Positions 682 to 31,340 of a stretch of DNA of 31,603 nt are shown here, piece by piece. The notes under the pieces were generated by a model that saw only the letters and a list, made by a program, of their open reading frames with translations, ran no database searches and was not told the DNA's origin. The stretch covers positions 1 through 31,603 of IMG/VR virus record IMGVR_UViG_3300030329_000822; one strand, written 5' to 3'. How positions within the stretch are numbered: position 1 is the first letter of the stretch; the number at the start of each line of letters is the position of its first letter. This DNA is from a virus. The position numbers were made by a program, and so were the translations under genes.

Positions 682-2844
682 ATGGCAAAAAAGAAAGGAA
701 AATTAGACTTAAAATTTACAGTTGATACAAGTAAACCTGTAAAGAATATAGATGAGTTAAACAAACGTATTGAAAAGTTAAGAGATACGATTGAAGGTGC
801 TCCATTAGGATCCGAGGAATTTGATAGACTAACTGCTCAATTACAGAATGCAAGTAGTGAAATGAAAGTCCTAGAAAAAAATATGGAAGGACTAGAGCCA
901 CAACAAAAAGCTGAAGCCTTTCTAAAAATGGGAGAAGGTATTGCCGGTGGTTTTGCAGTAGCACAGGGGGCTATGGGGTTGATGGGTATTGAAAGTGAGA
1001 ACATGGAAAAAATACAGGTTAAAGTGCAATCTGCAATAGCTATAGCAACAGGTATAAGAATGATGAGTGAAGCAGCTCTTATGGCAGCGACTGCAAAAAG
1101 AGTTGCGGTAGAGAAATTGGGGATCATTCAAACAAAGATTGGTATTGGACTATCAAAAGCTATGGCAATTGGTAACGCAGCTTGGGCTGTTGGTCAAGGT
1201 GTTTTGACTGGAAGTGTAGCAGCAACGACAGTTGGATTGCACGCTTTAAGGGCAGCGATAGCAGCGACAGGTATTGGAGCTCTAGCATTATTAATTATCG
1301 GATTGGTAGCAGCGGTATTTTCTTACGCTTCATCTACTGATAAATCTACAGCAGCACAAGAAAGACATGCAGCAGCTACAAGGGCAACTAGAGACGCTTT
1401 GTTAGAGAAGACAAACGCAATGCTTGCTTTAGGAGAATCTTATAAATCTCAAAAACAACACGAGTATGATTTACAAGACGCAGAAACCGAATCAGAAAAA
1501 ACTCTTTTGAAAAAACAAAGGAAGTTGGAGTCGATGGAAGCTACTCTTGAAAGTTTTTTAGAAACCCAAAGAAGTAACAATGAGTTACTAGCAGAACACG
1601 GACATGACGAAGCTTGGTTAAAAAGAAATCAAGCTACTATTGATGGATTGAATGAAAAAATTCGTGTGCAGGTTGAGTATAATAAAGCTCAAATGGACTC
1701 TATTCGTGCCACTGAACTACAAATTAAATCAGAAGAACAAGCAGAAGAAAAAAGAAAGACATACAGAAGCAGAAGAAAAGAAAGACAAAAACAAGACGCA
1801 ACAGAATTAGAGAGTTTAAGAAAATTACAAAACGAATTATTCTTATTGGAGATAGAAGATGACGATGAAAGAGAACAATCTAAGATTGAACAACAAAGAC
1901 AGGAAGCTTTAAGGGCTGCTGAGAGTATAAGAAAGGAATCAACAAGATTAGAAACGATCAATGAGATAAATAAAAAGTTTGATATTTTAGAAAAAAACAG
2001 ACTTCAAAAAATACAAGACGAGAAAGATAAAATACAAGAAGACGCAGATAAAGAAGCGAAAAAGAAAGCAGAAGAACATCAAGCAGCATTAGATAAAAGT
2101 ACAGATGAATATTTAGAAGAAATTAGACGTAAGAATTTAGATGATCAACAAAGAGAGTTAGAAGATATAAAATCTCATTACCAAAACATGTTGTTGGCAA
2201 AAGATCTAACAGATGAAGAAAAACTAAAACTTCATGAAGATTATAAAGCAAGAGAGAAAGAAATCAATGACAGATACCAATCAGAACAAGACACTAAGGA
2301 TCAGGAATCTAGGGATGCTCAAATTGAAGCAGGACAACAATTATTAGACGCTTTCTCAGCTAATATAGACGCAAGAGGTGCAGAGTTAGACAGGAGACAA
2401 GCAAAAGAACTTGCGGTAGAGGGTTTAACAGAAGAACAAAAAGAAAAAATTAATGCTAAATTTCAAAAGAAAAAAGATAGGTTAGCAAAAAGACAAAAAG
2501 CAATACAAGCAGCACAAGCAGCTATCAACACGTTTGTAGGAGCAACACGAGCTATAGCAGATTTAGGTCCTATAGCTGGACCAATTGCTGCAAGTGCAAT
2601 TATACTTGGTGGACTAGCTTCAATAAGACAAATATATGCACAAGATGTTGGAGACGGTGGAGGTGGTGGTGGAGTGGATGTTGAAGACACGACTGAATCA
2701 GGAGAAGAATCAACACCTAAAACAGGATCCTTTACATTAGGTGGTGGAGAACAACAAGAACCTATGAGAGCTTATGTGGTTACTGATGACGTAACGGACT
2801 CTCAATCTCAATTAGAGGATATAAGACAAGAATCAACAATATAA
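682..2844 (+). CDS. Tape measure protein
   Basis: The 720-residue product sets tail length and is threaded through the tail tube before DNA ejection. It begins with a Lys-rich segment and a coiled coil, followed by Ala/Gly-rich hydrophobic stretches (about residues 85-130 and 160-215). A long charged coiled coil covers about 225-580. Another hydrophobic stretch (about 600-650) ends in a poly-Gly linker and an acidic tail. This order of coiled coil and hydrophobic segments is typical of tape measures. By the usual rule of about 0.15 nm per residue the tail would be roughly 105 nm. The gene begins four bases after the fibre stop. No lytic transglycosylase or peptidase motif was seen inside it. 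Confidence 0.85.
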   Translation: MAKKKGKLDLKFTVDTSKPVKNIDELNKRIEKLRDTIEGAPLGSEEFDRLTAQLQNASSEMKVLEKNMEGLEPQQKAEAFLKMGEGIAGGFAVAQGAMGLMGIESENMEKIQVKVQSAIAIATGIRMMSEAALMAATAKRVAVEKLGIIQTKIGIGLSKAMAIGNAAWAVGQGVLTGSVAATTVGLHALRAAIAATGIGALALLIIGLVAAVFSYASSTDKSTAAQERHAAATRATRDALLEKTNAMLALGESYKSQKQHEYDLQDAETESEKTLLKKQRKLESMEATLESFLETQRSNNELLAEHGHDEAWLKRNQATIDGLNEKIRVQVEYNKAQMDSIRATELQIKSEEQAEEKRKTYRSRRKERQKQDATELESLRKLQNELFLLEIEDDDEREQSKIEQQRQEALRAAESIRKESTRLETINEINKKFDILEKNRLQKIQDEKDKIQEDADKEAKKKAEEHQAALDKSTDEYLEEIRRKNLDDQQRELEDIKSHYQNMLLAKDLTDEEKLKLHEDYKAREKEINDRYQSEQDTKDQESRDAQIEAGQQLLDAFSANIDARGAELDRRQAKELAVEGLTEEQKEKINAKFQKKKDRLAKRQKAIQAAQAAINTFVGATRAIADLGPIAGPIAASAIILGGLASIRQIYAQDVGDGGGGGGVDVEDTTESGEESTPKTGSFTLGGGEQQEPMRAYVVTDDVTDSQSQLEDIRQESTI

Positions 2845-2910
2845 TGATTGATATCAAAATAATATAAAACGCTCTTAAAACGAATAAAACAGACCTTAAA
2901 ACTTAAAATA

Positions 2911-3540
2911 ATGGCAAAAAAGAAAAAGAAGAAGAAAAAATCATATAAAATCACAGAATTGGTCATATCAGACGAGAATGAAGAGTTAGCAATTGACGCA
3001 ATTAGTCTTGTTTCGGATCCAGCTATCGAAGTTGATTTCATTTATTTCAATAAAAGTAAAAATAATTTGACTCTTGCAAAGTTAGATGAAGAAAAAAGAA
3101 TGTTAGTTAGTCCCGCTTTGATACCGAACAAAAATATATACAGATACGACGCTTCTACCGACCAAGATTATTACGTTTACTTCTCAAAAGAGACGGTACG
3201 TAAAGCTTCAGAGATGTATTTGAAACATAATAATCATCACAAAGCTACATATCAACACGAAAGTAGAGTATCTGGTGTATTAACTATTGAATCTTGGATC
3301 AAAGAAGATGACAAATATGACAAGTCAAACGCTTATGGATTTGATTTACCTATCGGAACATGGTTTGTAAAGATGAAAATTAATAACAACGAAATGTGGG
3401 AACGTATAAAGTCGGGTGAATTACGTGGATTATCTATTGAAGGATATTTTGTAGATAGATTAGAACAAATGGGATTGAACACCAAAATAAAAGAAGAAGA
3501 CATATTAGAAGTTTTAGCAGAAATTTTGAAAATCAAATAA
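2911..3540 (+). CDS. XkdF-type prohead serine protease
   Basis: The 209-residue protein resembles the XkdF family of phage serine proteases, which process scaffold and capsid proteins during head maturation. Visible family features are the N-terminal segment ISLVSDPAIE, the core KRMLVSPALIP, the region YQHESRVSGVLTIESWI with a candidate catalytic His and Ser, and the closing block GELRGLSIEGYF. It starts with an unusual run of eight lysines after MAK, encoded by an A/G tract, which may interact with DNA or scaffold. The next genes are a scaffold-like protein and the major capsid protein, as expected for a protease. Exact catalytic residues are not certain from sequence alone. Confidence 0.75.
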   Translation: MAKKKKKKKKSYKITELVISDENEELAIDAISLVSDPAIEVDFIYFNKSKNNLTLAKLDEEKRMLVSPALIPNKNIYRYDASTDQDYYVYFSKETVRKASEMYLKHNNHHKATYQHESRVSGVLTIESWIKEDDKYDKSNAYGFDLPIGTWFVKMKINNNEMWERIKSGELRGLSIEGYFVDRLEQMGLNTKIKEEDILEVLAEILKIK

Positions 3541-3599: not shown

Positions 3600-4316
3600 A
3601 TGGATATAAAAAAACAAATTTTATCAGCTTTAGGTCTTGATGAAGAAATCAATCTAGAGTACCAAGCTAAATTAGAAGATGGCACAATTATAGTATCAAG
3701 TGCAGATTCATTGGAAGCGGGTGTTGATATTTCTATCATGACAGAAGATGGATCCACAATGCCAATGCCTCCAGGAGATTATACAACGGAAGACGGAACG
3801 TCATTTACAGTTGAAACAGAAGGAACTGTAAAAAGTGTTGGTAGTGAAGAAGAAGAACCAGCAGAAGAAGAAACTGCAAAAGAAGAAAAATACGAAGAAG
3901 AAGATAAAGACAAAATGGAAGAACCAGCAGCTGAAGAAGTAAAGTCAGTTATCACTGATGAGGTAGCAGCAGCACAAGATGAAATTGCTATAGCTATTGA
4001 CGAAGCAACAGGAGATGAAGTAACACCTGAAGTTGCTGAAGCGGCAGCTGAAATAGCGGTTGCAATCGTTGAAGAAAAAGTTGAAGAAGTAGCAATGAAT
4101 AAACAATTGAAAGAATTAACAGAGATATTAAAGACAGAATTAGAATCTATGAAAGATAAGATAAAAGAAATAGAAAATACGTCTGGTGGGGATCCTGTTA
4201 AATTTAACAAGTTTACTGGAGAAACTTCAGTTTTACAAGAGTTAAGTGCGGCAGAATACAGAAAATTGCCTTCAAGAGAAAGATTCTTTTATAATTTACA
4301 AAAAAGAAAAAAATAA
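3600..4316 (+). CDS. Acidic capsid scaffold protein
   Basis: The 238-residue protein has a small N-terminal domain (about residues 1-80) and a very acidic Glu/Ala-rich middle (about 80-160). A coiled coil (about 165-195) and a basic C-terminal end (LPSRERFFYNLQKRKK) follow. Acidic, helical proteins between protease and major capsid protein are usually scaffolds that shape the procapsid and are then cut out. The basic C-terminus could contact the capsid protein. The 59 bp gap upstream holds TTCTATTACATA at 3552-3563, one base from the 12-mer found before other phage genes. The function is inferred from composition and position. Confidence 0.65.
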   Translation: MDIKKQILSALGLDEEINLEYQAKLEDGTIIVSSADSLEAGVDISIMTEDGSTMPMPPGDYTTEDGTSFTVETEGTVKSVGSEEEEPAEEETAKEEKYEEEDKDKMEEPAAEEVKSVITDEVAAAQDEIAIAIDEATGDEVTPEVAEAAAEIAVAIVEEKVEEVAMNKQLKELTEILKTELESMKDKIKEIENTSGGDPVKFNKFTGETSVLQELSAAEYRKLPSRERFFYNLQKRKK

Positions 4317-6208: not shown

Positions 6209-6682
6209 ATGATACATGCAATATATGGACAGACAATAACCAGTTATTTGAGCTTATTAGAAAGTAAAATTCACACAAGTGTTTCTAATAATAATTTAAG
6301 ATATCTTTTCAAATTTACTAATGACATGACAAAGACAGTTAAATATGCTTATGGAACTATTGTCAAAAAAAATGATAGGTATGTTAAACAAACTATTGAT
6401 CATAACACAACTGAAAATATTTTTAGTGGGAGAGTAAATTTCAAACCTTATGGATATTGGAGTTATGAAGTTTATGAAGTGTCTTGGATTGGAACGGTAG
6501 GCGTAAATGATACAAACGCTCCTAATAGTGAAACAGAAGTATTAACAGTAAACAACAACAATGGAGTAGTTAAGGGTAAAGTGCATGAGGGTAAATTATA
6601 TGTTACGGAAACAGTAGGATCCGAACAAATACAATATACAACACATACAGAAACAACAACAAATTATTTATATTCAAATTAA
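6209..6682 (+). CDS. Beta-rich virion protein
   Basis: The 157-residue protein has a conserved-looking core RYLFKFTNDMTKTVKYAYG and later VNFKPYGYWSYEVYEV, a pattern I associate with small structural proteins of Bacteroidota phages. It is predicted to be mostly beta strand, ending in a Thr-rich tail. It opens the second head/tail operon, after two terminator-like hairpins and the repeated 12-mer. It is followed six bases later by another small beta-rich gene. A tail-tip or adsorption accessory role is plausible, but no function can be assigned. Confidence 0.55.
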   Translation: MIHAIYGQTITSYLSLLESKIHTSVSNNNLRYLFKFTNDMTKTVKYAYGTIVKKNDRYVKQTIDHNTTENIFSGRVNFKPYGYWSYEVYEVSWIGTVGVNDTNAPNSETEVLTVNNNNGVVKGKVHEGKLYVTETVGSEQIQYTTHTETTTNYLYSN

Positions 6683-6688: not shown

Positions 6689-6976
6689 ATGGGAAATTCA
6701 ACAGTAGAATTATTAGGTGAACAACTAGGAAAAGGATCTGTAACAATTATTGAGGATACGGACTCAATTGGAGCGGCGACAGGCGTTGATTATTATGCAG
6801 TACACTTTCCGGTAGAAACTACAATAGCATCAATAACAACAGGATCCAATGTTACAGGAGATGACGCAGATTTGCATAGAACGTATGCTGCTGGAACTAC
6901 ATTATTCCTTAACTTTACAGCAATAACTTTATCAGGAACAGGATTAGCTTTAGTTTATAAGAATGATACTTTATAA
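6689..6976 (+). CDS. Small beta-rich virion protein
   Basis: The 95-residue protein is Thr/Gly/Ser-rich with alternating hydrophobic residues (VDYYAVHFPVETTIASITTGS), suggesting a single beta domain. It starts after an A-rich tract and its stop overlaps the next start in TAATG, so the two are translationally coupled. Being between two virion-like genes, it is probably a minor structural protein. No known family was recognised. Confidence 0.5.
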   Translation: MGNSTVELLGEQLGKGSVTIIEDTDSIGAATGVDYYAVHFPVETTIASITTGSNVTGDDADLHRTYAAGTTLFLNFTAITLSGTGLALVYKNDTL

Positions 6977-7710: not shown

Positions 7711-9749
7711 TGGAAAACATACTAAGTATAAATTTAGAAACACAAACCGCACCAAAGGTATCTGAACAACAGAATAAAGATTGGATTGAGTACGGAACAA
7801 ATGATTGGGCAAACCTCTATCCACAGTTTCTAATTGATTTATATTACAACAGCTCGACACATGCTGCAATTATTAACGCAACAAGAGATATGATTGCTGG
7901 TGAAGGGTTGAATATCGAAGAGACAGAAGATAACGAAACCTTTATCAAATTAACAAGTTTTGTAAACAACGTAAATGGTAGAGAATCATTACATGATGTT
8001 ATTAAAAAAGTAGCATTTGATTATAAGTTACAAGGAGGTTTTGCTCTTAACGTTATTTGGAATAAAACACGAACGGAGATTTCAGAGATTCATCACGTTC
8101 CAGTTGAAAGAATTAGAGCGGGTAAACCAAATGAATACGGTGTTGTAGATACTTATTGGGTATCAAGTGATTGGAGTGATACAAGAAAACATAAACCAAC
8201 ACCTATACCAGCTTTTAATATGAACGATAGAACATCACCAAGTCAAATAATATATGACGGTGATTATTCTCCTAATATGGATATCTATTTTACACCAGAT
8301 TATTCAGCAGGATGTAACTGGGCACTCGTTGATCAGATGGTGGCTGAATTTCACCTCAGCAACATAGCTCAAGGATTCTCGGGATCGTACTTTGTGAATT
8401 TTGCAAATGGTGTTCCGACACAGAAAGAGAGAATTGAAATAGAGAATAGTCTTATAAATAAATTCAGTGGTGCAAAAGCTAGTGGGAAGATTGTATTAAC
8501 ATTCTCAGACGACGCAACAAAAGTACCACAGATTACACCTATAGCTGTTTCAAACGCAGACAAACAGTACCTCGCCTTGCAAGAATTGCTCGTTCAGAAC
8601 ATTCTTACCGCCCATCGTGTTACGAGTCCAATGTTAATGGGAATTAAAAACGAAACCGGTCTAGGATCCAATGTTGATGAATTAAACTCTGCATTTGAAG
8701 TATATCTCAATACGATAGTAAAACCATATCAACACAAAATAATGAGGTGTATTCAAAAGATACTTACAATCAATAAGATTAATATACCTATCGAATTTAT
8801 ACAAAACAAACCTATTACTACACAATTCACAATTGATGATATGAAGTCGGTTATGACACAAGATGAGATACGTGAAGAATTAGGATTACCACCATTAGAA
8901 TCAGACGAACAAGTTGAAGAAGATGAGTTTTCAAAATTTAATATTTCCGATTGGGTAAACAATATAGACGGATATCCTGTTTTTGAAACTGAAATTGAAG
9001 CAGAAGAAAAGGCAAAAGAGATGGGATGTGAAGGATCACATAAACATGAAGACGAAAACGGAAAAGTGTGGTATATGCCTTGTAAAGACCATTCTACTGT
9101 TACAGCATTACATTCCAACGAAAGTCTCTTAAACTTCATTAAAACGTACGGAGAAGACGTACCTGGAGACGATTGGGAATTAATAAGTAATGAAATTGTA
9201 ACAGATGAACATGAGGACTTTGATTTTGAGAATGAATTAAATAAATTACACAGACAAGAGTTTTCTACAAAACGAAGCTCTGCTGCTATTGTTTCAGATT
9301 CTGGTGTAGATGAATTGGATCCAGAACAAGACGGAGAAGATAGAGAAAGTAATTTATATAAAGTTAGATACAGATATTCAACAGCAATATCAAGTGGAAA
9401 CTCTAGACAGTTTTGTACTAATATGTTAAACAATAATAGAATATATAGAAAGGAACATATAAAATCTATGAATAGTGAAACATACAATCCAGGTTTTGGT
9501 CCAAATGGTAACGAGCCGTATTCAATCTGGCTTTACAAAGGAGGACCTCAATGTGGTCATTACTGGAGACGTGAGATCTATTTTTATAAATTAGGAGAAG
9601 CAGACGGAACAAATATAGAAGACGCAACAAGAATAATAACAACAACAGAGGCAAGGGCAAATGGGTTCTATCCAGAAGCAAATGATTCAAGAGTTAGTAG
9701 GGCTCCAAAGAACATGCCGAATAGTGGATATAAGAACCCAAGAAAATAA
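7710..9749 (+). CDS. Portal protein with a C-terminal extension
   Basis: The 679-residue protein forms the dodecameric ring through which DNA enters and leaves the head. Residues about 1-400 look like a portal: LYPQFLIDLYYNSSTHAAIINATRDMIAGEGLNI, the stem region ending in KQYLALQELLVQNILTAHRV, then TGLGSNVDELNSAFEVYL, and QDEIREELGLPPLE. A linker domain with GYPVFETEIEAEEKAKEMG and conserved Cys/His follows. The last 140 residues contain FCTNMLNNNRIYRKEHI, FGPNGNEPYSIWLYKGGPQCGHYW. Similar tails are known to me from Bacteroidota phage head proteins. The extension makes it longer than most portals (400-550). It lies far from terminase, which is unusual. Confidence 0.8.
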   Translation: MENILSINLETQTAPKVSEQQNKDWIEYGTNDWANLYPQFLIDLYYNSSTHAAIINATRDMIAGEGLNIEETEDNETFIKLTSFVNNVNGRESLHDVIKKVAFDYKLQGGFALNVIWNKTRTEISEIHHVPVERIRAGKPNEYGVVDTYWVSSDWSDTRKHKPTPIPAFNMNDRTSPSQIIYDGDYSPNMDIYFTPDYSAGCNWALVDQMVAEFHLSNIAQGFSGSYFVNFANGVPTQKERIEIENSLINKFSGAKASGKIVLTFSDDATKVPQITPIAVSNADKQYLALQELLVQNILTAHRVTSPMLMGIKNETGLGSNVDELNSAFEVYLNTIVKPYQHKIMRCIQKILTINKINIPIEFIQNKPITTQFTIDDMKSVMTQDEIREELGLPPLESDEQVEEDEFSKFNISDWVNNIDGYPVFETEIEAEEKAKEMGCEGSHKHEDENGKVWYMPCKDHSTVTALHSNESLLNFIKTYGEDVPGDDWELISNEIVTDEHEDFDFENELNKLHRQEFSTKRSSAAIVSDSGVDELDPEQDGEDRESNLYKVRYRYSTAISSGNSRQFCTNMLNNNRIYRKEHIKSMNSETYNPGFGPNGNEPYSIWLYKGGPQCGHYWRREIYFYKLGEADGTNIEDATRIITTTEARANGFYPEANDSRVSRAPKNMPNSGYKNPRK

Positions 9750-11115: not shown

Positions 11116-11498
11116 AAGAGTACAAAAATTTCAAAAGTAAGGAATTTGATTCTCCTGATTTACCAGGATCCGGAGATAACATGAAAGACGAGTTTATGGA
11201 GTTACTTCAAAAGGCTCGTGAGATAGCGGATACACCGTTCCGTATTACATCTGGATTCAGAACAGAAGCTTATCAGTTAGATTTGAAAAGGAGAGGGTAT
11301 AAAACAGCTAAGAATAAAAGTCCTCATCAAGAAGGTTATGCGTGTGATATCGCATGTACAGATAGTAAGACAAGATACTTAATTATAGGATCCTTAATGT
11401 TGGCTGGGTTTAATAGATTTGGAATAGGAGCTAGTTTCATACACGTGGACAATAGTCCTAATTATACACCAAATAGGGTGTGGACATATAAATATTAA
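11112..11498 (+). CDS. Endolysin, M15-family peptidase
   Basis: The 128-residue protein is a single Peptidase_M15_3-type domain, a zinc carboxy/endopeptidase acting on peptidoglycan stem peptides. The zinc motif S-P-H-Q-E-G-Y-A-C-D gives His72 and Asp79, and the second motif HVD gives His111. The segment FRITSGFRTEAYQ is the usual upstream strand. There is no signal peptide, so release would depend on a holin, and holin-like genes lie on both sides. It starts with GTG at 11112, overlapping the previous stop by four bases. Confidence 0.85.
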   Translation: MKEYKNFKSKEFDSPDLPGSGDNMKDEFMELLQKAREIADTPFRITSGFRTEAYQLDLKRRGYKTAKNKSPHQEGYACDIACTDSKTRYLIIGSLMLAGFNRFGIGASFIHVDNSPNYTPNRVWTYKY

Positions 11499-17067: not shown

Positions 17068-17098
17068 CTTTTTATTACTGGATCCATAAATAAAACAA

Positions 17099-18897: not shown

Positions 18898-19299
18898 ATG
18901 AAAATACAAAAAAAATATCACTTTTATGCTGGACATAGAAATAAAGAAGCAGGTGAGAAATGTGGAAGATTACATGGACATACTTACGATGTAGAATGTA
19001 TATTTGAATTTAATAATCTTGACAATGGTATAACAATGTTGTTTAGTGATATTGATATTATTGTTGAACCAATCATTAAACAATACGACCACTATTTTTT
19101 ATTGTATGAAAAGGATCCTATGTGTGAGGTGTTAGACTTAGCAAATGAACCTTACATTAGTTTACCTTTTGAAACATCAGCAGAGAACATGGCAATATGG
19201 ATATTCAATCAAATTAAGAGAGAGTTACCAATTGTTGAAATTAGATTAGCAGAAACGAAAACAAGTAAAATAATATATAATGAAAGAATTAAGAGTTAG
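18898..19299 (+). CDS. queD: 6-carboxytetrahydropterin synthase QueD
   Basis: The 133-residue enzyme turns dihydroneopterin triphosphate into 6-carboxy-5,6,7,8-tetrahydropterin, the second step of preQ0 synthesis. Zinc ligands are visible as His13 (AGH) and His26/His28 in CGRLHGHTY, with catalytic Cys22. The family pair Asp63-His64 and the ETKTS motif near the C-terminus are also present. Length equals that of bacterial QueD (about 120-140). It is the first gene of the cassette and overlaps queE by 20 bases. It carries a GGATCC site, unlike folE, queC and dpdA. Confidence 0.9.
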   Translation: MKIQKKYHFYAGHRNKEAGEKCGRLHGHTYDVECIFEFNNLDNGITMLFSDIDIIVEPIIKQYDHYFLLYEKDPMCEVLDLANEPYISLPFETSAENMAIWIFNQIKRELPIVEIRLAETKTSKIIYNERIKS

Positions 19300-19975
19300 T
19301 GAATGGTTTTATTCCATTCAAGGAGAAGGTAAAACAATGGGAATACCGTCTTTATTTATAAGACTACAAGCTTGTAATATAGTGTGTGATGGTGAATGGA
19401 CATGTGATACAATAGAAGTATGGAAACATGGAGATAAAATATCACATGAAGATTTCTTAGATGAACTGGATCCATATATCTACAATCTGTATTCTGGTGC
19501 ACATTTAGTATTCACAGGTGGTGAGCCTTTAATACAAAAAAAAGGTATTATACAATTTATAGAAACCTTTAAGAAAAGACACAAATTTATACCATTTATT
19601 GAAATAGAAACAAACGGAACAAAATCACCAAAAGGGTTGGAAGAGTATATTGATTTATGGAATTGTAGTTTCAAGTTGGCAAACAGTGGTGTAGAATTAA
19701 GAAGAAGAATTGTGCCAAAATGTTTACAAGAAATCAACAAATTAAATTCAATATTCAAAATAGTAATTGGAAAAGAAGAGGACTGGAAAGAAGCAGAATT
19801 AATTATATTAGGTAACGACTTAGACAACAAAAAAATATATTTAATGCCATCAGCAGAAGATATGAATCAACTAACTAAAAACAATCAACTGGTTGCAGAG
19901 ATATGTAAAAAACACACATTAAAATATTCATCAAGATTACAAATAACATTATGGAACAAAACAACAGGAGTATAA
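19280..19975 (+). CDS. queE: 7-carboxy-7-deazaguanine synthase QueE
   Basis: The 231-residue radical SAM enzyme contracts the ring of carboxytetrahydropterin to 7-carboxy-7-deazaguanine. Typical blocks are EWFYSIQGEG (8-17), the cluster cysteines, TGGEP (79-83) for SAM binding and EIETNGT (108-114). The cluster motif is Cys32-X3-Cys36-X5-Cys42, slightly wider than the classical CX3CX2C; QueE families are known to vary here. It overlaps queD by 20 bases and the folE fusion by 25, so the cassette is one operon. Confidence 0.9.
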   Translation: MKELRVSEWFYSIQGEGKTMGIPSLFIRLQACNIVCDGEWTCDTIEVWKHGDKISHEDFLDELDPYIYNLYSGAHLVFTGGEPLIQKKGIIQFIETFKKRHKFIPFIEIETNGTKSPKGLEEYIDLWNCSFKLANSGVELRRRIVPKCLQEINKLNSIFKIVIGKEEDWKEAELIILGNDLDNKKIYLMPSAEDMNQLTKNNQLVAEICKKHTLKYSSRLQITLWNKTTGV

Positions 19976-20781
19976 TAACATGGGAAGAAATATACAAAAG
20001 AATCAAAACATTACCAAAAGGGAAATGTTATGGTGTACCAAGAGGTGGACAAGTAGTAGCGGGTCTTACAGGTAACGCAGTTGATACACCAGATGAGGCA
20101 GATTATATATTAGACGACTTAATAGACAGTGGACGTACAGCAATGAAATGGAAAGAGAAATATCCTGACAAACCTTTCTTAGCTTTATGGAATAAGATAG
20201 AAGAAAAGAATCTAGGTTGGTTAGAATTTCCGTGGGAAGAAAATGGAGAGAGAGACGCAGAAGATAGTGTAGCTAGATTATTACAAGCGTTCGGTGAAGA
20301 CACAAACAGAGAAGGACTAAAAGATACACCAAAAAGATATGTAAAATTCTTTAAGGAATTTTTATCACCACCTGAATGGAATTGCACTACATTTGAAAGT
20401 GAAGGGTATGACGAAATGATTGTGCAAACTAATATACCATTTCATTCATTATGTGAACACCATATTGCACCATTCTTTGGAGTTGGTCATATTGCATATA
20501 TACCAGGAGAAAGAATAGTAGGGTTAAGTAAATTAGCTAGAACCTTAGAAACTTTTAGCAGGAGATTACAAAACCAAGAAAGAATAACAAATCAGGTAGC
20601 AGAATTTTTACAAGAACAGTTACAACCAAAAGGAGTAGCGGTAGTATTAACTGCTAAACACATGTGTATGGAAATGAGAGGTGTTAAAAAACATAATACT
20701 CATACAACAACATCTAAAATGATTGGAGTATTCAAAGATGACTTAAATTGTAGAAACGAATTTCTAAACTTAATAAAATGA
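19951..20781 (+). CDS. folE: Phosphoribosyltransferase-like domain fused to GTP cyclohydrolase I
   Basis: The 276-residue protein has two parts. Residues about 10-90 look like a small phosphoribosyltransferase: GKCYGVPRGGQVVAGL and the PRPP-loop-like ILDDLIDSGRTA (53-64). Residues about 100-276 are GTP cyclohydrolase I, which opens GTP to dihydroneopterin triphosphate, the first step of preQ0 synthesis. Visible motifs are SLCEHHIAPFFG with zinc ligand Cys168 and a His, ERIVGLSKLAR, and KHMCMEMRGV with the second Cys. The extra domain might salvage guanine or a base released by DNA modification and feed the cyclohydrolase; this is inference. It overlaps queE and queC. Confidence 0.9.
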   Translation: MEQNNRSIITWEEIYKRIKTLPKGKCYGVPRGGQVVAGLTGNAVDTPDEADYILDDLIDSGRTAMKWKEKYPDKPFLALWNKIEEKNLGWLEFPWEENGERDAEDSVARLLQAFGEDTNREGLKDTPKRYVKFFKEFLSPPEWNCTTFESEGYDEMIVQTNIPFHSLCEHHIAPFFGVGHIAYIPGERIVGLSKLARTLETFSRRLQNQERITNQVAEFLQEQLQPKGVAVVLTAKHMCMEMRGVKKHNTHTTTSKMIGVFKDDLNCRNEFLNLIK

Positions 20782-21446
20782 AAGCAGTAGTAATATTCAG
20801 TGGCGGACAAGATTCTACCACCTGCCTATATTGGGCATTAAAACAAAAATACAGATTTGATGAAGTTGAAGCAATTACTTTTGATTATGGTCAAAAACAT
20901 TCAATTGAAATAGAACAATCTAAAATTATATGTAAAAAAGAAAATATCAAACAAACAATAATTGATATAAGTTTTTTAGATACAATAGTTGAATCTGCTT
21001 TAACATCAAATGGAAATGTAAATCAATTAAACGAAAAAGGACTCCCCGCTTCTTTCGTTCCTAACAGGAATCAATTATTCATTACAATGGCTCATTCTTA
21101 TGCTCAAAAGGTTGGAGCTAAAGTTTTAGTTGGAGGAATGTGTGAAACAGATTTTTCTGGATATCCCGATTGTCGTAGAGAGTTTATTGATTCAATTCAA
21201 TTATCTTCAAACATTGGAAGTGATTCAGATATTAAAATTGAAACACCTTTAATGTATTTAGATAAAGCAGAAACATTTAAGATGGCTAACGATATAGGAC
21301 ACTTGAAAGAAATTATAGAACTATCGCATACTTGTTACAATGGAGATAGAACAATGAATGAATGGGGAGCGGGTTGTGGAAATTGTCCAGCTTGTGAATT
21401 AAGAAAAAAGGGATACTACGAAGCAAAAGAAAAAGGTTGGTTATGA
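20778..21446 (+). CDS. queC: 7-cyano-7-deazaguanine synthase QueC
   Basis: The 222-residue ATP-dependent enzyme converts 7-carboxy-7-deazaguanine and ammonia to preQ0 (7-cyano-7-deazaguanine). The PP-loop SGGQDSTT is at 8-15, followed by FDYGQKH and FVPNRNQLF. Zinc cysteines are Cys186, Cys200, Cys203 and Cys206 (CGNCPAC), all present. Its length equals bacterial QueC (about 220-230). It overlaps folE and dpdA by four bases each. No amidotransferase or QueF follows, so preQ0 is the likely end product. Confidence 0.93.
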   Translation: MKAVVIFSGGQDSTTCLYWALKQKYRFDEVEAITFDYGQKHSIEIEQSKIICKKENIKQTIIDISFLDTIVESALTSNGNVNQLNEKGLPASFVPNRNQLFITMAHSYAQKVGAKVLVGGMCETDFSGYPDCRREFIDSIQLSSNIGSDSDIKIETPLMYLDKAETFKMANDIGHLKEIIELSHTCYNGDRTMNEWGAGCGNCPACELRKKGYYEAKEKGWL

Positions 21447-22183
21447 AAATATATTTTGCAGGGTATTATACATCAAAAGAATTATTAGAAATCAAAGAAG
21501 ATTTCGGTGTATTAACCTCTTATGTTGAAGTAAAAAACAAAGGAATTGAAGTAATATCTAAACCTCTAATATTAGATTCAGGAGCTTTCTCAATTGCATC
21601 AGGGAAGTCAAAACATACTCTTGATGATTATATAAAATTCGTATATGAGAACAAAGATAAATGTGAGTGGTATGCAAATTTAGATGTAATAGGGAGTGCT
21701 GAAAAGACTTGGGCAAATCAAAAAGAAATGGAAAGACAAGGATTAAAACCTGTTCCAACATTTCACTATGGAAGCGATTATAAATTTTTGAACAAATACA
21801 AAGAGCAATACGATTTTTTAGGATTAGGTGGGTTAGTTCCTTACGCAAAACAAAAGAAAAAGTTATATTTACATTTAGATAAATGTTTTTCAATAATCAA
21901 AGACGAGGTAAGAACACATGGTTGGGGGATGACTGGAGGTCAAACATTAAGGAGATATCCTTTTTATTCTGTTGATTCAACCGCTTGGCTTTATGGTGGT
22001 AAGATGAGAAAGAGGAACGATTATAGTTTTAAGAGTATGACAGGTTGTGATTACTTAGCAAAGATTATGGATTATCACGAATTGAATATACATAACGCAA
22101 AACAATATTTATTATTAACTAAAGAAGTAACAAAATTATGGAAGGAAAAAGGAATAAATTGGGATTCACAGAAGTCTCAATAG
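21443..22183 (+). CDS. dpdA: Compact DpdA-like DNA transglycosylase
   Basis: The 246-residue protein looks like a short member of the TGT/DpdA superfamily, which swaps guanine for a 7-deazaguanine base. LDSGAFS (Asp45) matches the DSGGFQ motif of tRNA-guanine transglycosylase, GLGGLV (127-132) the VGGL base-binding loop, and YSVDSTAW (Asp178) the catalytic Asp motif. The zinc site of tRNA enzymes is missing, as expected for DNA-acting DpdA. The ATG at 21443 overlaps the queC stop; the longer TTG start at 21437 is unlikely. Directly after queC, it should insert preQ0 into phage DNA. A tRNA target is less likely because host Tgt already does this. Confidence 0.75.
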   Translation: MKIYFAGYYTSKELLEIKEDFGVLTSYVEVKNKGIEVISKPLILDSGAFSIASGKSKHTLDDYIKFVYENKDKCEWYANLDVIGSAEKTWANQKEMERQGLKPVPTFHYGSDYKFLNKYKEQYDFLGLGGLVPYAKQKKKLYLHLDKCFSIIKDEVRTHGWGMTGGQTLRRYPFYSVDSTAWLYGGKMRKRNDYSFKSMTGCDYLAKIMDYHELNIHNAKQYLLLTKEVTKLWKEKGINWDSQKSQ

Positions 22184-22791
22184 ATAAATTAATTAAAGCA
22201 GACTGGAATTATAAGACAGAAGATTTACAAAAATCTAAGAAACTAAAAGAAAACATTAAAAGAAACGGACAGGTTGAAAATATACTTATTAGGGAATTGG
22301 AGACAGGAGACTTTGAAGTAGTCAATGGTAATCACAGGTTAGATGTATTCAGAGATTTAGGAATAAAAAAAGTAATGGGATACAATTTTGGAATTATTTC
22401 TCAACAGCAAGCAATGAGAATAGCAATAGAAACAAATGAAACTAAATTTGATAGTGATAGTATTGTGTTAGCTGAAAGAATAAAAGAACTAACAGAAGAA
22501 TTTAATTTAGATGATTTGGTTTCTACACTACCATATAATGAAAATGAGATATTAAATTTCAAAACATTAACTGACTTTGACTGGTCTCAATATGATTCAG
22601 ATGAGGTTGATACCTTTGGAGATACAGAGTATGATAAAGAAATTAAATTCAAAGTAACAGAAGAAACTTTTCAAAGATGGCAAGAACTAAAAGATAGATT
22701 TCAAACTATAATAGGTTATGAAAATGAAAGTAAAGTATTTGAATTTGCAATTATAGAAGCATTGAATATGCCAATAGAGAGTATTAAATAA
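22138..22791 (+). CDS. ParB-like nuclease-domain protein
   Basis: The 217-residue product has a ParB/Srx-type N-terminal domain: FTEVSIDKLIKADWN, then KLKENIKRNGQVENILIREL, and the core VVNGNHRLDVFRDLG (about 61-75). This fold binds and hydrolyses nucleotides, classically CTP in ParB. Residues after 110 form a helical middle and an acidic linker (DYDSDEVDTFGDTEYD) before a helical end. Its first 46 bases overlap the dpdA gene, so both are made together. It may load, guide or assist DpdA on DNA, or act in packaging with the terminase that follows. Confidence 0.75.
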   Translation: MEGKRNKLGFTEVSIDKLIKADWNYKTEDLQKSKKLKENIKRNGQVENILIRELETGDFEVVNGNHRLDVFRDLGIKKVMGYNFGIISQQQAMRIAIETNETKFDSDSIVLAERIKELTEEFNLDDLVSTLPYNENEILNFKTLTDFDWSQYDSDEVDTFGDTEYDKEIKFKVTEETFQRWQELKDRFQTIIGYENESKVFEFAIIEALNMPIESIK

Positions 22792-23169: not shown

Positions 23170-24469
23170 TCCTAAATACACGAGTACACAAAGTAGAGCA
23201 TTCAAGTATTTATTTGATAATGAGACAAATGATATATTGTTTGGTGGAGCTGCAGGTGGTGGTAAAAGTTTCATGGGATGTAGTTGGCTAATAATACTAT
23301 GTATTAAATATCCTGGTACTAGATATTTGATGGGAAGAAGTAAACTCGATAATCTTAAAAAGACAACATTAAATACGTTTTTCGAGGTATGTAATCAATG
23401 GGGTATAAAATCAGGAACACATTTCAATTTTAATGCAGGTAGTAATATTATAACATTCTATAATGGAAGTGAGATATATTTGAAAGATTTATTCCACTAT
23501 CCTGCAGATCCAAATTATGACAGTCTAGGATCCTTAGAAATAACAGGTGCATTTATTGATGAAGCAAATCAAATAACAGAGAAGGCTAAGAACATAGTGA
23601 ACTCTAGGATCCGTTATAAGTTAGATGAATACAATATTATACCAAAGATATTACTCACTTGTAATCCGTCTAAGAATTGGACATATACACAATATTACAG
23701 ACCAGCAAAAGAAGGTAAGATTGAACCACATAAAAAGTTTGTGCAGAGTTTGGTTGATGACAATCCTTATATATCAAAACACTATAAAGGACAATTAGAG
23801 AAGTTAGATGAAATATCAAAACAGAGGTTGTTATATGGTAATTGGGAGTATAATGCAGGTGAAGATAATCTATGTAATTATGACTCTATTGTAAATCTAT
23901 TTAATCAAAAAGGTATTGAAGGTGAAAAATACATAACCTGTGATGTTGCAAGATTCGGTAATGATAAAACGGTTATAATGTATTGGGAAGGTCTTACCAT
24001 TAAAAATATAATATCGTACGGCAAATCGACGATAACACAGGTTAGTGAAGAGATTAAAAGGATCCAACAAACAGAGGGTATTAATCTTAGAAATATAATT
24101 GTAGATTCTGATGGGGTTGGAGGTGGTGTTCAAGACATATTAAATTGTAAGGGGTTTCAAAATAACGGAAGACCAATTAATAAAGAGAACTATCAAAACA
24201 TTAAAACACAATGTTACTACAAATTAGCTGATATGATTAACAAAGCACAAATAGGTATAGAAACAAACGACATAACAATAAAGAATCATATCATTGAAGA
24301 GTTAGAACAGATACGATCAAAAGATATGGACAAAGACAATAAATTACAAATACTACCAAAAGAAGTTATCAGAGGTATTATAGGACGTTCACCTGATTAT
24401 TCAGACACTATAATGATGAGAATGTATTATGAGATAGATAAGAACTACGGTAGGTATTTTGTTCAATAA
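23153..24469 (+). CDS. terL: Large terminase subunit
   Basis: The 438-residue packaging motor has an ATPase domain with Walker A GGAAGGGKS (31-39) and Walker B AFIDEAN (about 133-139). Its RNase H-like nuclease domain contains ITCDVARFGNDKTV (about 261-274), IIVDSDGVGGG (about 314-324) and SPDYSDTIMM (about 414-423), supplying the metal-binding acidic residues. Length is that of typical large terminases. It is followed not by a portal gene but by tail assembly genes; the portal lies about 15 kb further on in the circular genome. Confidence 0.93.
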   Translation: MELNIDPKYTSTQSRAFKYLFDNETNDILFGGAAGGGKSFMGCSWLIILCIKYPGTRYLMGRSKLDNLKKTTLNTFFEVCNQWGIKSGTHFNFNAGSNIITFYNGSEIYLKDLFHYPADPNYDSLGSLEITGAFIDEANQITEKAKNIVNSRIRYKLDEYNIIPKILLTCNPSKNWTYTQYYRPAKEGKIEPHKKFVQSLVDDNPYISKHYKGQLEKLDEISKQRLLYGNWEYNAGEDNLCNYDSIVNLFNQKGIEGEKYITCDVARFGNDKTVIMYWEGLTIKNIISYGKSTITQVSEEIKRIQQTEGINLRNIIVDSDGVGGGVQDILNCKGFQNNGRPINKENYQNIKTQCYYKLADMINKAQIGIETNDITIKNHIIEELEQIRSKDMDKDNKLQILPKEVIRGIIGRSPDYSDTIMMRMYYEIDKNYGRYFVQ

Positions 24470-24499: not shown

Positions 24500-25132
24500 A
24501 TGAATGTTACAATAGTAAAAGACGGAAAACAAATTAAAAGAAAATTACCTACTCATTGGGATAATATAACATTGAAACAATACATGAGTGTTATGAAAAT
24601 AATCTCGAATAAAGAGTTGAAATCACTATCACGAATAGTTAAGGTTATTGGAGCACTGACAGATATAGATGAAGAGGACATTGTTAGACTACCAGTAAAA
24701 AATATTAACACTTTAGGTAGTGTAATGAATAAGTTTTTACAAACCAAACCAAATGAAGATCTAAATCATATAGTAAAATTAGATGGTGTTGAATATGGTT
24801 TTCATCCTAAATTATCAAACATTACTTTTGGTGAATGGGTTGATATAGATAGTTACATAACAGAGGGAGTGAATGACACATTACACAAAATAATGGCTAT
24901 ATTATACAGGCCAATTATAGCAAAAAAAGATGGTAAGTATAGGATCCAGGAATATGAACCAAATGAAGAATCACAGGATCTAATGTTGAATCATTTAACT
25001 GTGGGAGATTTTTATGGGGTCTCGGTTTTTTTTTCCGATTTAGGCAAAGAACTCTTGAATCATTCGGCTCAGTCTTCAATTCGGGAATTGATAGCGGAGC
25101 ACAAGATGGACAAACATCAACAGGAAATCTAA
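24500..25132 (+). CDS. Tail assembly chaperone, unshifted form
   Basis: The 210-residue protein looks like a tail assembly chaperone of Bacteroidota phages: KLPTHWDNITLKQYMSVM near the start, a helical middle, ILYRPIIAKKDGKYRIQEYEP, and the closing HLTVGDFYGVSVFFSDLGKELLN. Such proteins bind the tape measure during tail assembly and are made in a short and a frameshifted long form, as with lambda G and G-T. A nine-T slippery run at 25026-25034 and an open -1 frame to 25296 support this. The C-terminal 33 codons use atypical G/C-rich codons, as expected for a region read in two frames. Confidence 0.65.
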   Translation: MNVTIVKDGKQIKRKLPTHWDNITLKQYMSVMKIISNKELKSLSRIVKVIGALTDIDEEDIVRLPVKNINTLGSVMNKFLQTKPNEDLNHIVKLDGVEYGFHPKLSNITFGEWVDIDSYITEGVNDTLHKIMAILYRPIIAKKDGKYRIQEYEPNEESQDLMLNHLTVGDFYGVSVFFSDLGKELLNHSAQSSIRELIAEHKMDKHQQEI

Positions 25133-25933: not shown

Positions 25934-25934
25934 T

Positions 25935-26405: not shown

Positions 26406-27004
26406 TGAAATATAAACAAGCACAGAAGTTATTACACAAGTATGGTAAGTCTATAACTAGACAAGCTAAAAAAATTATTAAATCAAAGAAAAAAAAATCT
26501 TCTGGTGCTCTTATTAAATCAATTAAATACAAGGTTAAAAAAAGTCGTAAAGGGTTTGACATAGAGTTTTTAAAAACACCTTACGGAGAATTTATAGACA
26601 AAGGGGTTAGAGGTGTCGGAAGATCTATATTACCAGCTGGATCTACAACAGGTCAACACGGTACCAAAATGAAACCTAATAGAACTTATATTGATGAACT
26701 CACAGGTAAGAGAAAAAGAAGTCCATATTCGTTTAGAAAGAACGCTAGAAAAAAATCAGGATCCTTTTATAGGTCGTTAGATAAATGGATAATAAAAAAA
26801 GGAATTGCACCAAGAGATAAAGACGGAAAATTCATAAGCAGAAAGAGTATGAAATATATAGTAGCAAGAGGTATTAAAGCAAAAGGTATAGAGGGTATCA
26901 GTTTCTATTCTCAACCATTAGCTGCTAGTCGTAAAAACTTTAGAAAGAATTTAATGGGTGCATTACAAGAAGATGTATTAAATAATTTACGTATAGTCAA
27001 ATGA
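26405..27004 (+). CDS. HK97 gp10-like head-tail joining protein
   Basis: The 199-residue, strongly basic protein resembles the HK97 gp10 family of neck or tail-completion proteins. An N-terminal helix is followed by SIKYKVKKSRKGFDIEFLKTPYGEFIDKGVRG, a basic insert, and GIAPRDKDGKFISRKSMKYIVARGIKAKGIEG. The YGEFIDKGVRG and IARGI-like blocks are the recognisable parts. It overlaps the downstream gene by four bases. The order after the tail-terminator-like gene fits a tail-completion role. Confidence 0.6.
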   Translation: MKYKQAQKLLHKYGKSITRQAKKIIKSKKKKSSGALIKSIKYKVKKSRKGFDIEFLKTPYGEFIDKGVRGVGRSILPAGSTTGQHGTKMKPNRTYIDELTGKRKRSPYSFRKNARKKSGSFYRSLDKWIIKKGIAPRDKDGKFISRKSMKYIVARGIKAKGIEGISFYSQPLAASRKNFRKNLMGALQEDVLNNLRIVK

Positions 27005-28431
27005 TAATAAAACAAAAACCGTTATACAAACTAATGCCGACAGGTGAAAAAATAATATTTGCAGTTGAAGATAATACAGCAATAGTAAATGTAAAATCTA
27101 AATATATTGCCAAAGTTTATATTTCAGATAGTATTTCAACAATATTAACAACCGACACAACAGCAACATTAAAAGTCAATCCAAACGCAAAAGGAGTAGG
27201 AATATTTGACCTATCTACAGTTTTAGATAATTATGTTAATGTAGATTATTTAGGAGGGGGTATAGGTTTGTCAGGAAGTAGTAATACATCTTCATTCAAA
27301 GGAACAGATTATTCAGATAATAAACCACACGACATACATTTAATAGACGATTGGAGTTGTAATCAAAATGCGGTTAGATATTTTACGGTAGAATTTTACA
27401 CAGAATATGCAGATACTATTTCAGATCCTGTAGTTGTAGATGAAAGCATGAAATTAAGGTCTGCGGACTACATTATATTTAATGGTTATTTAGATCATTC
27501 AGATACTCTTAATTATCATGGTGCTGATTTTGGTTATAATTTAGACGGAGTAAATTTAATTAATCAAAATACAAACGATTCATTATTAACAAACGCTCCA
27601 GTCAAACAATATGCTAGGCTAAATGATTATATGACAATAGCAATGTTTAACAATATAAGAGAAGATAACAGTAGTTTTGATATGGCATTATCAGGAAGCT
27701 TCCAGTCAGTTAGCACTATTCATATTCAATTTTATTACAATCAATCTACAGCAGGATCTGCTTTAATTTATTCTAATACTGGATCCAATGGTGGTTATTA
27801 TGGACATAATGGTTTGAGTAAAACACATATAATATACAGGGGAATAGGTCCAGCAAATTTAACTAACACTGGAGTCACTTTACCTGCTAATTGGGATCAC
27901 TACGAATTTTATATCAGAGACAGCGCGGGTAATCAAATTTCTAAGAAATATGTAATACACCAACAATTTGATGATTGTAAAGGGTTTGAAACTATAAGGC
28001 TATGTTGGGTAAATAAATGGGGAACTTGGGATTACTATAATTTTACAAAGAAATCTACAAGAACATTAGACAAAAAACCAAGCACATACCACCAAAATTA
28101 TGGAACGTGGAACGAAAAAACATATAGAGCTTTTGGTCATAAAGGGGGTACTAAAATTGTTCAAAGCGCTTCAACAGAAACCATTACATTGAATACAGAT
28201 TATATAACAGAAGAAGAAGCAACGTGGTTGCAAGAATTATTTTTAACACATGACGTATATATATTAAATCAAGACAGCGCTGACGATATTATGGGCTACG
28301 GCAGAAAGTATGTAGAACCTGTTACAATAACATCAACACAATACGTTAAAAAAACCAAAGCTAATGATAAGCTTATACAGTATTCAATAGAAATAGAAAA
28401 ATCAAAACCTAAACGTGCACATAGATCATAA
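27001..28431 (+). CDS. Tail-tip or distal tail structural protein
   Basis: The 476-residue protein is mostly beta strand with many Tyr, Asn and Thr. Its C-terminal third contains CKGFETIRLCWVNKWGTWDYYNFTKKS, a block I recall from large virion proteins of Bacteroidota phages. A closing region (EEEATWLQELFLTHDVYIL) follows. The N-terminal 70 residues look like a separate small domain. It precedes and overlaps the tail hub gene by one base. A distal tail or baseplate-hub partner role fits the context. Confidence 0.5.
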   Translation: MIIKQKPLYKLMPTGEKIIFAVEDNTAIVNVKSKYIAKVYISDSISTILTTDTTATLKVNPNAKGVGIFDLSTVLDNYVNVDYLGGGIGLSGSSNTSSFKGTDYSDNKPHDIHLIDDWSCNQNAVRYFTVEFYTEYADTISDPVVVDESMKLRSADYIIFNGYLDHSDTLNYHGADFGYNLDGVNLINQNTNDSLLTNAPVKQYARLNDYMTIAMFNNIREDNSSFDMALSGSFQSVSTIHIQFYYNQSTAGSALIYSNTGSNGGYYGHNGLSKTHIIYRGIGPANLTNTGVTLPANWDHYEFYIRDSAGNQISKKYVIHQQFDDCKGFETIRLCWVNKWGTWDYYNFTKKSTRTLDKKPSTYHQNYGTWNEKTYRAFGHKGGTKIVQSASTETITLNTDYITEEEATWLQELFLTHDVYILNQDSADDIMGYGRKYVEPVTITSTQYVKKTKANDKLIQYSIEIEKSKPKRAHRS

Positions 28432-31340
28432 TGGCATTACAATTATCAATATATCCACAATATAATACTACAGGACAATTTAGTTATGTATCAACACCTG
28501 TTGCTCCTAATTTAGTAAATGATCCAAATTTCTTTTTAACCGCTTTGTTTAGCGGATCTAGTTTTGGAACATCTTATCCAATTAGTGGTAATCAACCATC
28601 TTTTTCTGCGGTAAGTCAATATTTACCTAATGGGTTATGGCAAGCGTTTCATACCAACGGAGTCGGTAATACAGCGACCACAAAACCTACATTTCAGAAT
28701 ATAGGAAACTTAAATGTTGCCTTAGTATTACAAGGAGTAGGAGGATCTTCAACAGGAGTTTATCAAATGATAGACGGACTAACAGTAGGTCATGATTATA
28801 CGGTATCAGTTAAGCTTCATAATACAGGCACAGGTTATTTTTATATTGGTAACATTTATAATTTTGGAACGTTTAATTCAGGTGGAACAAATTATTGGCA
28901 CATACCAGAGAATGCCGTTGCAGCTTGGACAAGCGTTGATATTACAGGACTTTTAACTTATACCTTTACTGCGCAAAACACAGAGGAGTATTTATTGTTA
29001 GATTATCATGCAGCAGATACGCAAGACTTAAAAATCACAGAAGTATCTGTAAGGGAATCAGAAGAAACTGCACCAGAATTATTAAGCAGAGTGCATGACG
29101 GACAAGTTTTAGTTGATTTAATGGACGCTAATTCAGTGCCTGTTACATTATCAATAGATAATTTCAAAAACGTAGGGGAGAAACCACAATCATACTCTAA
29201 AGCTTTTAATTTACCTTCAACAAAAAACAACAATATAATATTTAGCACTTTATTTGATGTAACAAGATCGGTAAAAGAAGACGGCTTTGCTTTCAACCCA
29301 TATAAAATGACGAAAGCTATTTTGAAAGAAGATAGTTTAACAATATTTGACGGTTATCTAAAATTAATTGCAGTAAAAGAGAAAGACGGAATTGTATCTT
29401 ATAATGTAAATTTATTTAGTGATGTCGTTTCGTTAAAAAAAATATTATCTAAAAAGACGTTAAATGATTTTGACGGTGGTCAATTTGGGGGTGGTCATGG
29501 TTTATCAGAATTAGAACATCCATATAATAAAAATTCAATTAAAGATTCTTGGGATGGATCTTTAGAAATAACACCACCGACATCTGGTTATACAGGGTCT
29601 TTAACATATACAGTATTTCCAACTGAAACTACTACAAATGTATTAAAATATCCATTTTGCCGTTGGAGCCCAGACATATATCAGTCAGACGGAAGCTCTG
29701 GACCTTTACTTGCTCCTGTTATTAGTGAATTACCAGACGCTTTTAGACCTTGGATACAAATTAAATACCTGTGGGATAGAATATTTTCAGAAGCGGGCTT
29801 TAGTTATCAAAGCGATTTTATTAATACAGCTCAATTTAAGAGGTTGTTTATGGACTTTAATTGGGGTAAAGAAACAAAGCCGTTAAGGGCGGAAGACAAT
29901 GTAGACGCATATTATTGGTATGACGCTAGCGCGGTAAATACTATAGGATCTTCATACACAAATCTTAAAATGAACAGCACAAGTGTTAGTGGTGCAAACG
30001 TGCCGCAAGCTTTAACAGATTTAGGGTGGAGCACAGTTCATAGTAAATTCACATGCACAACGACAACGACTACTTACGTTATAAATGGAGATTTTTTAAT
30101 TGGAAATACAAGCGGTAGTAATGCAACTATTACTTGTCGTATTGTGCATAAAGACTCAACTGGAGCTATTGTGAATCAATACACACAAACACTTACCGCT
30201 CAAAATAATCTTTATGCAGCTTTTAATGTAGGTGTTGTTTGGAATTTAGATGCAAATGATACAATAGAAATACAAGCTAAAACAACTTCATCAAATGTAT
30301 ATCAAGGCTATCTAACTTACGGCACAACATTTCCAGGAGCTACTGTTATTGTAGCGGTGCAAACTACACCAAATATAACTTCTAGTATTTTATTAAGCAA
30401 AAGAGGAAAAATTAAACAGTGGGATCTAATTAAAGACATTATGACAATGTTTAATTTAGTAACACTACAGGATCCTAAAAACGCTAATAATTTAATCATT
30501 GAACCATACGAAGATGTTTTCATAACAGGATCTAGTTCATATATAGATATTGCGGAACATGATTGGACAGGCAAAGTAGATGTTGGTCAAATGCAAATTA
30601 AACCTCTAAAATTAAAAGAAACTGTAACATTTGATTATAAGAAGCCAAAAGATTATGCGAACAAAGTATATACATCTTCTACAGGTTTGACGTTAGGAAG
30701 CTTCAAAATTGAAGCTGGAGATTTTGCGATGGCAACAGGCACGCAAAAAATACAATTAAAAGTTTTTAGTCCTACTATGATGGTGCCGGTGTTAGATGAC
30801 TTTAATCAAGTATTAACAGTGCCGCATATATGTAATGGAAGCTTAGAAGAAGGAGTAACCGATTCTATAGACAACAATCCACGAATACTTTATGACGCTA
30901 CATTTTCATCTGATCCAACAGGAACAGGGGGAAGAATATCAGTTGCCCCAGATACATATAGAATACCTGGAGCAAATGGTTTGTTTGGTGAAGACCAATC
31001 CACATTTGGTTTATTCTCAACTTTACAAGGACACCCAGCAGCAGTAACAGATTTAGATTTGAATTTTGGCACACACCAAATGATTGGACATTGCATTGCT
31101 CCACCGAGTTTGGGAGTACCAACGCATAATTTATTTAATACATATTGGAGTCCTTATTATGACGAAGTTTATCATCCAGACACAAGAATAGTTACAGTGC
31201 ATGTTAATCTAACTTCAAGAGAATTAAATACTTTTAACTTTAATGATAAGATAACAATTAAAAACAGGTTATATAGGGCTAACAAAATAGATTACAAACC
31301 TGGTAAATTAAGTAAAGTAGAATTAATATTATTACCATAA
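28431..31340 (+). CDS. Large tail hub protein with inserted carbohydrate-binding-like domain
   Basis: The 969-residue protein is the largest in the genome. After a short start (MALQLSIYPQY), residues about 25-210 form a jelly-roll-like domain (NLVNDPNFF, QMIDGLTVGHDYTVSVKLHN, EYLLLDYHAAD, ITEVSVRES) of the type used to bind sugars. From about 220 the hub-like part begins: VTLSIDNFKNVGEKPQSYSKAFNLPSTKNN, FNPYKMTKAILKEDS, GYLKLIAVKEKDGIVSYNVNLFSDVVSLKKIL. I associate this with central tail hubs in Bacteroidota phages. The sugar-binding-like domain may touch host polysaccharide. It overlaps both neighbours by one base. Confidence 0.6.
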   Translation: MALQLSIYPQYNTTGQFSYVSTPVAPNLVNDPNFFLTALFSGSSFGTSYPISGNQPSFSAVSQYLPNGLWQAFHTNGVGNTATTKPTFQNIGNLNVALVLQGVGGSSTGVYQMIDGLTVGHDYTVSVKLHNTGTGYFYIGNIYNFGTFNSGGTNYWHIPENAVAAWTSVDITGLLTYTFTAQNTEEYLLLDYHAADTQDLKITEVSVRESEETAPELLSRVHDGQVLVDLMDANSVPVTLSIDNFKNVGEKPQSYSKAFNLPSTKNNNIIFSTLFDVTRSVKEDGFAFNPYKMTKAILKEDSLTIFDGYLKLIAVKEKDGIVSYNVNLFSDVVSLKKILSKKTLNDFDGGQFGGGHGLSELEHPYNKNSIKDSWDGSLEITPPTSGYTGSLTYTVFPTETTTNVLKYPFCRWSPDIYQSDGSSGPLLAPVISELPDAFRPWIQIKYLWDRIFSEAGFSYQSDFINTAQFKRLFMDFNWGKETKPLRAEDNVDAYYWYDASAVNTIGSSYTNLKMNSTSVSGANVPQALTDLGWSTVHSKFTCTTTTTTYVINGDFLIGNTSGSNATITCRIVHKDSTGAIVNQYTQTLTAQNNLYAAFNVGVVWNLDANDTIEIQAKTTSSNVYQGYLTYGTTFPGATVIVAVQTTPNITSSILLSKRGKIKQWDLIKDIMTMFNLVTLQDPKNANNLIIEPYEDVFITGSSSYIDIAEHDWTGKVDVGQMQIKPLKLKETVTFDYKKPKDYANKVYTSSTGLTLGSFKIEAGDFAMATGTQKIQLKVFSPTMMVPVLDDFNQVLTVPHICNGSLEEGVTDSIDNNPRILYDATFSSDPTGTGGRISVAPDTYRIPGANGLFGEDQSTFGLFSTLQGHPAAVTDLDLNFGTHQMIGHCIAPPSLGVPTHNLFNTYWSPYYDEVYHPDTRIVTVHVNLTSRELNTFNFNDKITIKNRLYRANKIDYKPGKLSKVELILLP

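Follow-up and report, generated by a model that had tools for sequence, protein, structure and literature searches.

The highly iterated palindromes (HIPs) of cyanobacteria, HIP1 (GCGATCGC) and its alternates, occur at densities of about 0.5–2 per kb, and one alternate, GGGATCCC, is found in two Synechococcus, JA-3-3Ab and JA-2-3B (PMC4390886). Where HIP sequences occur, a methyltransferase that can act on them is present too, and it is still debated whether selection produces them or whether they arise as a side effect of methyl-directed mismatch repair (PMC4390886). Why one restriction-like palindrome should accumulate in some genomes has been a standing question since HIP1 was described in cyanobacteria. 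In phages, the described behaviour of the same class of words, 6 bp palindromes including the site of BamHI, is avoidance (PMC6286503). A second phage system touching on that site is 7-deazaguanine modification by DpdA, which can make DNA resistant to BamHI (PMC6884629).

The window, meaning the whole stretch of DNA analysed, is the entire IMG/VR virus record IMGVR_UViG_3300030329_000822 (31,603 bases). A preliminary description had listed 29 copies of GGATCC in it; all positions proved exact, with none missing and none extra, and the same distribution over reading frames was obtained (14 Gly-Ser, 9 x-Asp-Pro, 5 x-Ile-x and 1 intergenic). Its expectation of about 2 copies is borne out by Markov models of order 1 (1.79) and order 2 (2.45), and its count of seven GATCC lacking the leading G was also recovered (3 with A, 1 with C and 3 with T in its place). 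The GC content is low, as it had said, at 32% rather than the 30% or so given there. The sites, none with a strand assigned, are listed below, and rest on the sequence count and frame assignment except for the three in TerL, which rest on the count and alignment.

808–813, GGATCC site, Gly-Ser frame
2725–2730, GGATCC site, Gly-Ser frame
3015–3020, GGATCC site, x-Asp-Pro frame
3750–3755, GGATCC site, Gly-Ser frame
4190–4195, GGATCC site, x-Asp-Pro frame
6617–6622, GGATCC site, Gly-Ser frame
6842–6847, GGATCC site, Gly-Ser frame
8664–8669, GGATCC site, Gly-Ser frame
9317–9322, GGATCC site, x-Asp-Pro frame
11166–11171, GGATCC site, Gly-Ser frame
11388–11393, GGATCC site, Gly-Ser frame
13359–13364, GGATCC site, x-Asp-Pro frame
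14369–14374, GGATCC site, Gly-Ser frame
14727–14732, GGATCC site, Gly-Ser frame
15503–15508, GGATCC site, x-Asp-Pro frame
15802–15807, GGATCC site, x-Ile-x frame
16527–16532, GGATCC site, x-Ile-x frame
17080–17085, GGATCC site, intergenic
17418–17423, GGATCC site, Gly-Ser frame
18422–18427, GGATCC site, x-Asp-Pro frame
19113–19118, GGATCC site in QueD, x-Asp-Pro frame
19468–19473, GGATCC site in QueE, x-Asp-Pro frame
23528–23533, GGATCC site in TerL, Gly-Ser frame; the closest relative, G001, has GGATCA
23607–23612, GGATCC site in TerL, x-Ile-x frame; also in G001, other relatives having synonymous codons that do not form GGATCC
24060–24065, GGATCC site in TerL, x-Ile-x frame; also in G001
24942–24947, GGATCC site, x-Ile-x frame
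26759–26764, GGATCC site, Gly-Ser frame
27781–27786, GGATCC site, Gly-Ser frame
30470–30475, GGATCC site, x-Asp-Pro frame

When codons were permuted among synonymous positions genome-wide, a null model that keeps both the proteins and the codon usage, 2.25 ± 1.43 coding sites were expected against the 28 observed, so that GGATCC stands about twelve times above what the phage's proteins and codon usage predict. The maximum over 1000 shuffles was 8, and none came to 20 or more. No unrelated 6-mer shows an equal excess: AGGATC is also over-represented but overlaps GGATCC, and the next unrelated word, GACGCA, has a z of 6.3. Across 64 palindromes in 177 phage stretches (each at least 11 kb, overlapping pieces of relatives counted in), GGATCC in the window is an extreme outlier, with a z of 15.4 where the next case has 6.8. 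The Markov models, the codon null and the 6-mer comparison together rule out chance or codon usage as the source of the excess. An artefact of any kind, including joins made during assembly at BamHI sites or adaptors, can practically be discounted, as the genes are intact across the sites (three of them within TerL) and two of the TerL sites recur in a separate contig, that of G001. This relative, with a TerL 95% identical, has no additional sites of its own; it gives weak independent support because both sites are shared by descent.

The full palindrome is what counts, since variants altered on one side are neutral under the codon null (AGATCC/GGATCT, 18 against 14.8 expected; GGATCA/TGATCC, 16 against 16.4). 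For the same reason GGATCC is not a by-product of a favoured half-site, GGATC. The related word AGATCA is depleted (6 against 17.7 under the codon null), and many other palindromes are scarce in the window, such as TTTAAA (5 against 39.9) and GAATTC (0 against 10.8), so the usual loss of palindromes by phages, invoked in the preliminary description, is seen here for other words. One-mismatch neighbours of GGATCC number 54 where 66.6 are expected, which is no clear depletion, and a simple conversion process is therefore not visible. Another idea is that a mutational or repair bias alone, for example very-short-patch repair turning T:G into C:G, makes GGATCC without benefit to the phage. Such a drive could fill permitted positions with no gain in fitness, but the precursors that carry T show no depletion (GGATCT, 18 against 15.2; GGATTC, 7 against 8.9), several sites needed multiple changes, judging from the aligned relatives, and the known effects of very-short-patch repair are far below twelvefold. 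We regard this explanation as quite improbable.

Relatives were gathered by searches with the terminase, capsid, DpdA, QueC, ParB, tail, mini-HTH and portal proteins, giving about 250 phage stretches; the window's terminase is 52% identical to that of Flavobacterium phage 11b. The first relatives gathered (1.74 Mb) carry 16 GGATCC where 64 are expected, and dozens have none or almost none, so the excess is not a property of the family. Overall GATC content varies widely among close relatives, from 0 to 2.3 times expectation, as it would if the rules were dictated by hosts and the hosts changed. GATC is absent from G009 (0 of 58 expected) and L143 (0 of 52), while in G005, G006 and G011 it reaches roughly 2.2 times expectation, yet with no GGATCC. 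Total loss of GATC was also noted in L141, L011–L013, L291, L292 and L310, as in G009 and L143, with an approximately twofold excess in close relatives.

Every position at which the protein sequence would allow GGATCC was counted in all three frames, and 28 of the 93 (about 30%) are filled. Use differs by frame, being 14 of 59 for Gly-Ser, 5 of 20 around Ile and 9 of 14 before Asp-Pro, and by region, the early genes having filled 8 of 15 and the right structural genes 4 of 27 (on a slightly different gene list). Just 24 TCC codons occur in the genome and 14 lie inside GGATCC, which agrees with an earlier remark that the sites force rare codons. The sites arose largely by synonymous change; an Arg-Ile-Arg in the aligned codons, read by eye, is AGG ATT AGA in relatives and AGG ATC CGT in the window. 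In the two frames other than Gly-Ser, permitted positions are commoner in the window (34) than in six relatives (14–22), which hints at some amino-acid changes toward GGATCC as well. Spacing between sites is random (CV 0.87, compared with 0.95 ± 0.16) and the sites are distributed along genes with no preferred position, contradicting a regular-spacing or gene-position signal. The 4 kb gap at 19.5–23.5 kb might be taken as the sign of a recently acquired preQ0 cassette, but is uninformative because the region from FolE to TerS has only 3 permitted positions.

The excess thus persists under a null that preserves the proteins, in all frames and with random spacing, while relatives are near zero. 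It follows, as first proposed, that the force is exerted on DNA and not on protein; it is also strong and limited to this lineage. GGATCC is thus read by something, whether of the phage or of its host. Where the flanks are synonymously free, an A on the 5′ side and a T on the 3′ side are favoured (17 of 23, 10.5 expected, P 0.002), so the word actually read may be AGGATCCT. This preference fits an 8 bp protein contact, and GGATCC, perhaps so extended, could be bound genome-wide by a DNA-binding protein of phage or host origin, for instance one that serves in packaging, replication or compaction. Methyltransferases too have flank preferences, however, and the random spacing and the distribution of the candidate proteins make such a role doubtful. 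The recognition helix of TerS is identical in G028 and G031, neither of which has a clear excess, and this weakens the packaging signal suggested before; relatives of the winged-helix protein, another suggested reader, occur in seven phages that each have 0 or 1 site; and the mini-HTH protein has homologues in phages lacking a clear excess.

The best parallel for these properties is the cyanobacterial HIPs. Like them, GGATCC is palindromic, GC-rich relative to its genome, in strong excess over compositional nulls, lineage-specific and indifferent to frame and gene position; its density (29 in 31.6 kb, or 0.92 per kb) lies within the HIP range, and its GATC core is shared with some HIPs. Unlike HIPs, it has fewer sites in total and lies in a virus record in which no cognate methyltransferase was found, the phage being related to those of Flavobacterium and Cellulophaga and not to cyanophages. 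Membership of the HIP family is not claimed for a sequence whose setting is neither chromosomal nor cyanobacterial. The comparison with restriction-site avoidance (PMC6286503) holds for the other palindromes of the window, which are avoided, but for GGATCC the sign is opposite.

The window also shares with the DpdA phages (PMC6884629) a full preQ0 pathway and a DpdA-like enzyme, encoded side by side with a ParB-like protein:

18898–21446, + strand, preQ0 biosynthesis genes QueD, QueE, FolE and QueC (Pfam hits), a candidate source of modified guanine
21437–22183, + strand, DpdA-like guanine transglycosylase (phrog_887, E 3e-46), a candidate modifier with a putative link to GGATCC
22138–22791, + strand, ParB-like protein (homology, neighbourhood), a candidate DpdA partner whose close relatives are mostly beside DpdA

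In Cellulophaga phage phi38:2 a ParB-like gene likewise adjoins the DpdA gene. GGATCC could then be the target of this machinery, its guanine being replaced by preQ0 or a derivative, and sites would be selected because protection rises with the number modified. The adjoining genes favour such a role, as does G031, whose DpdA is 66% identical; alone among the long relatives it has several GGATCC (4, against 2.1 expected), with no AGATCT (7.6 expected) or TGATCA (8.6 expected). However, GATC is entirely missing from the examined stretches of L291 and L292, the other nearest DpdA carriers (68% identity), phages with related DpdA (G028, G053 and G037) have no GGATCC, and four DpdA phages sampled from other groups are without an excess (one has 0 where 16 are expected). 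Nor would a rare hexamer target explain the broad restriction resistance that known DpdA modifications confer (PMC6884629), and a literature search found no published DpdA target or excess at GGATCC. The suggestion of a DpdA target thus stands as to the enzymes and fails as to an excess in phages with related DpdA, and we consider it unlikely. The ParB-like protein, also put forward as a reader, has relatives of 56–79% identity in other phages, and no clear excess is seen in any of these phages.

Searches of the window for methyltransferases (PF02086, PF01555 and PF00145) found none, so a methylase target, another early suggestion, would require an enzyme of the host. We favour this explanation, a host-encoded GGATCC-specific enzyme as the driver of the excess, with a probability of roughly 40%. 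GGATCC behaves here like a highly iterated palindrome, pushed by a force on DNA to a density near one per kb. The source of the force would be an enzyme present in the host population, a DNA methyltransferase being the likeliest. The more marked sites a phage copy had, the better its survival or repair would be, either through protection against another nuclease or through mark-directed mismatch repair of the kind proposed for cyanobacterial HIP sites (PMC4390886), and sites would have accumulated until the protein sequence began to limit them. It counts in favour of a host enzyme that the tested phage-encoded readers do not track the excess, their homologues occurring in phages without a clear one. 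Three points count against it: phages normally lose rather than gain the sites of host type II enzymes, the one-mismatch neighbours are not clearly depleted, and no GGATCC-rich genome was found among 754 distinct Flavobacteriaceae/Flavobacteriales genomes, in which the densest has 0.50 GGATCC per kb. The sampled DNA of the densest genomes was mostly GC-rich (0.43–0.56) and without GGATCC excess; one of these genomes, the Flavobacteriaceae bin G243, is fragmented and was sampled in part. A terminase search for a prophage or host link returned distant prophages only.

A weaker excess of another palindrome, TCCGGA, occurs in the relatives L335 (18, against 3.7 expected), G033 (15, against 3.1) and G003 (7, against 1.2). 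Among the enriched relatives the modification modules are of three kinds (TET/JBP, Mom and PAPS-reductase-like), and this makes the phage's own module less likely as the driver. A TCCGGA excess was noted for G056 and L007 too. The broader proposition, that about a third of the permitted positions have come to hold a palindrome which the phage's own modification machinery or the host treats as a beneficial mark, comes fairly near an even chance. If true, a virus would carry a HIP-like signal and would do the opposite of avoiding restriction sites, showing a restriction palindrome strongly favoured there against the usual rule, and a 31 kb phage behaving in this way would be a small, fast-evolving system for identifying the driver.

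Two further word excesses were seen. L161 (19.2 kb) has 35 CAGCTG where the codon null gives 13.3, and neither CCGG nor GATC. Small contigs of 23% GC in bin G243 (L244, L254–L259), possibly contaminating organelle DNA, contain 33 GGCGCC where 1.8 are expected.

Most relatives examined have a swappable DNA-modification module directly upstream of TerS, usually with a ParB-like protein. Module types are preQ0/DpdA, a Tet_JBP oxygenase with a TET-associated glycosyltransferase, Mom, PAPS-reductase-like, and N6/N4 methyltransferase. The locus is 18898–22791 in the window and occupies the same place in G001, G003–G006, G008–G010, G014, G019, G024, G027, G028 and G031–G034. Within it, FolE (19951–20781) is matched only at residues 104–275; its first 100 or so residues resemble a phosphoribosyltransferase fragment (ADYILDDLIDSGRT), which suggests that the window's FolE is a fusion. 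FolE of G028 is 175 aa long.
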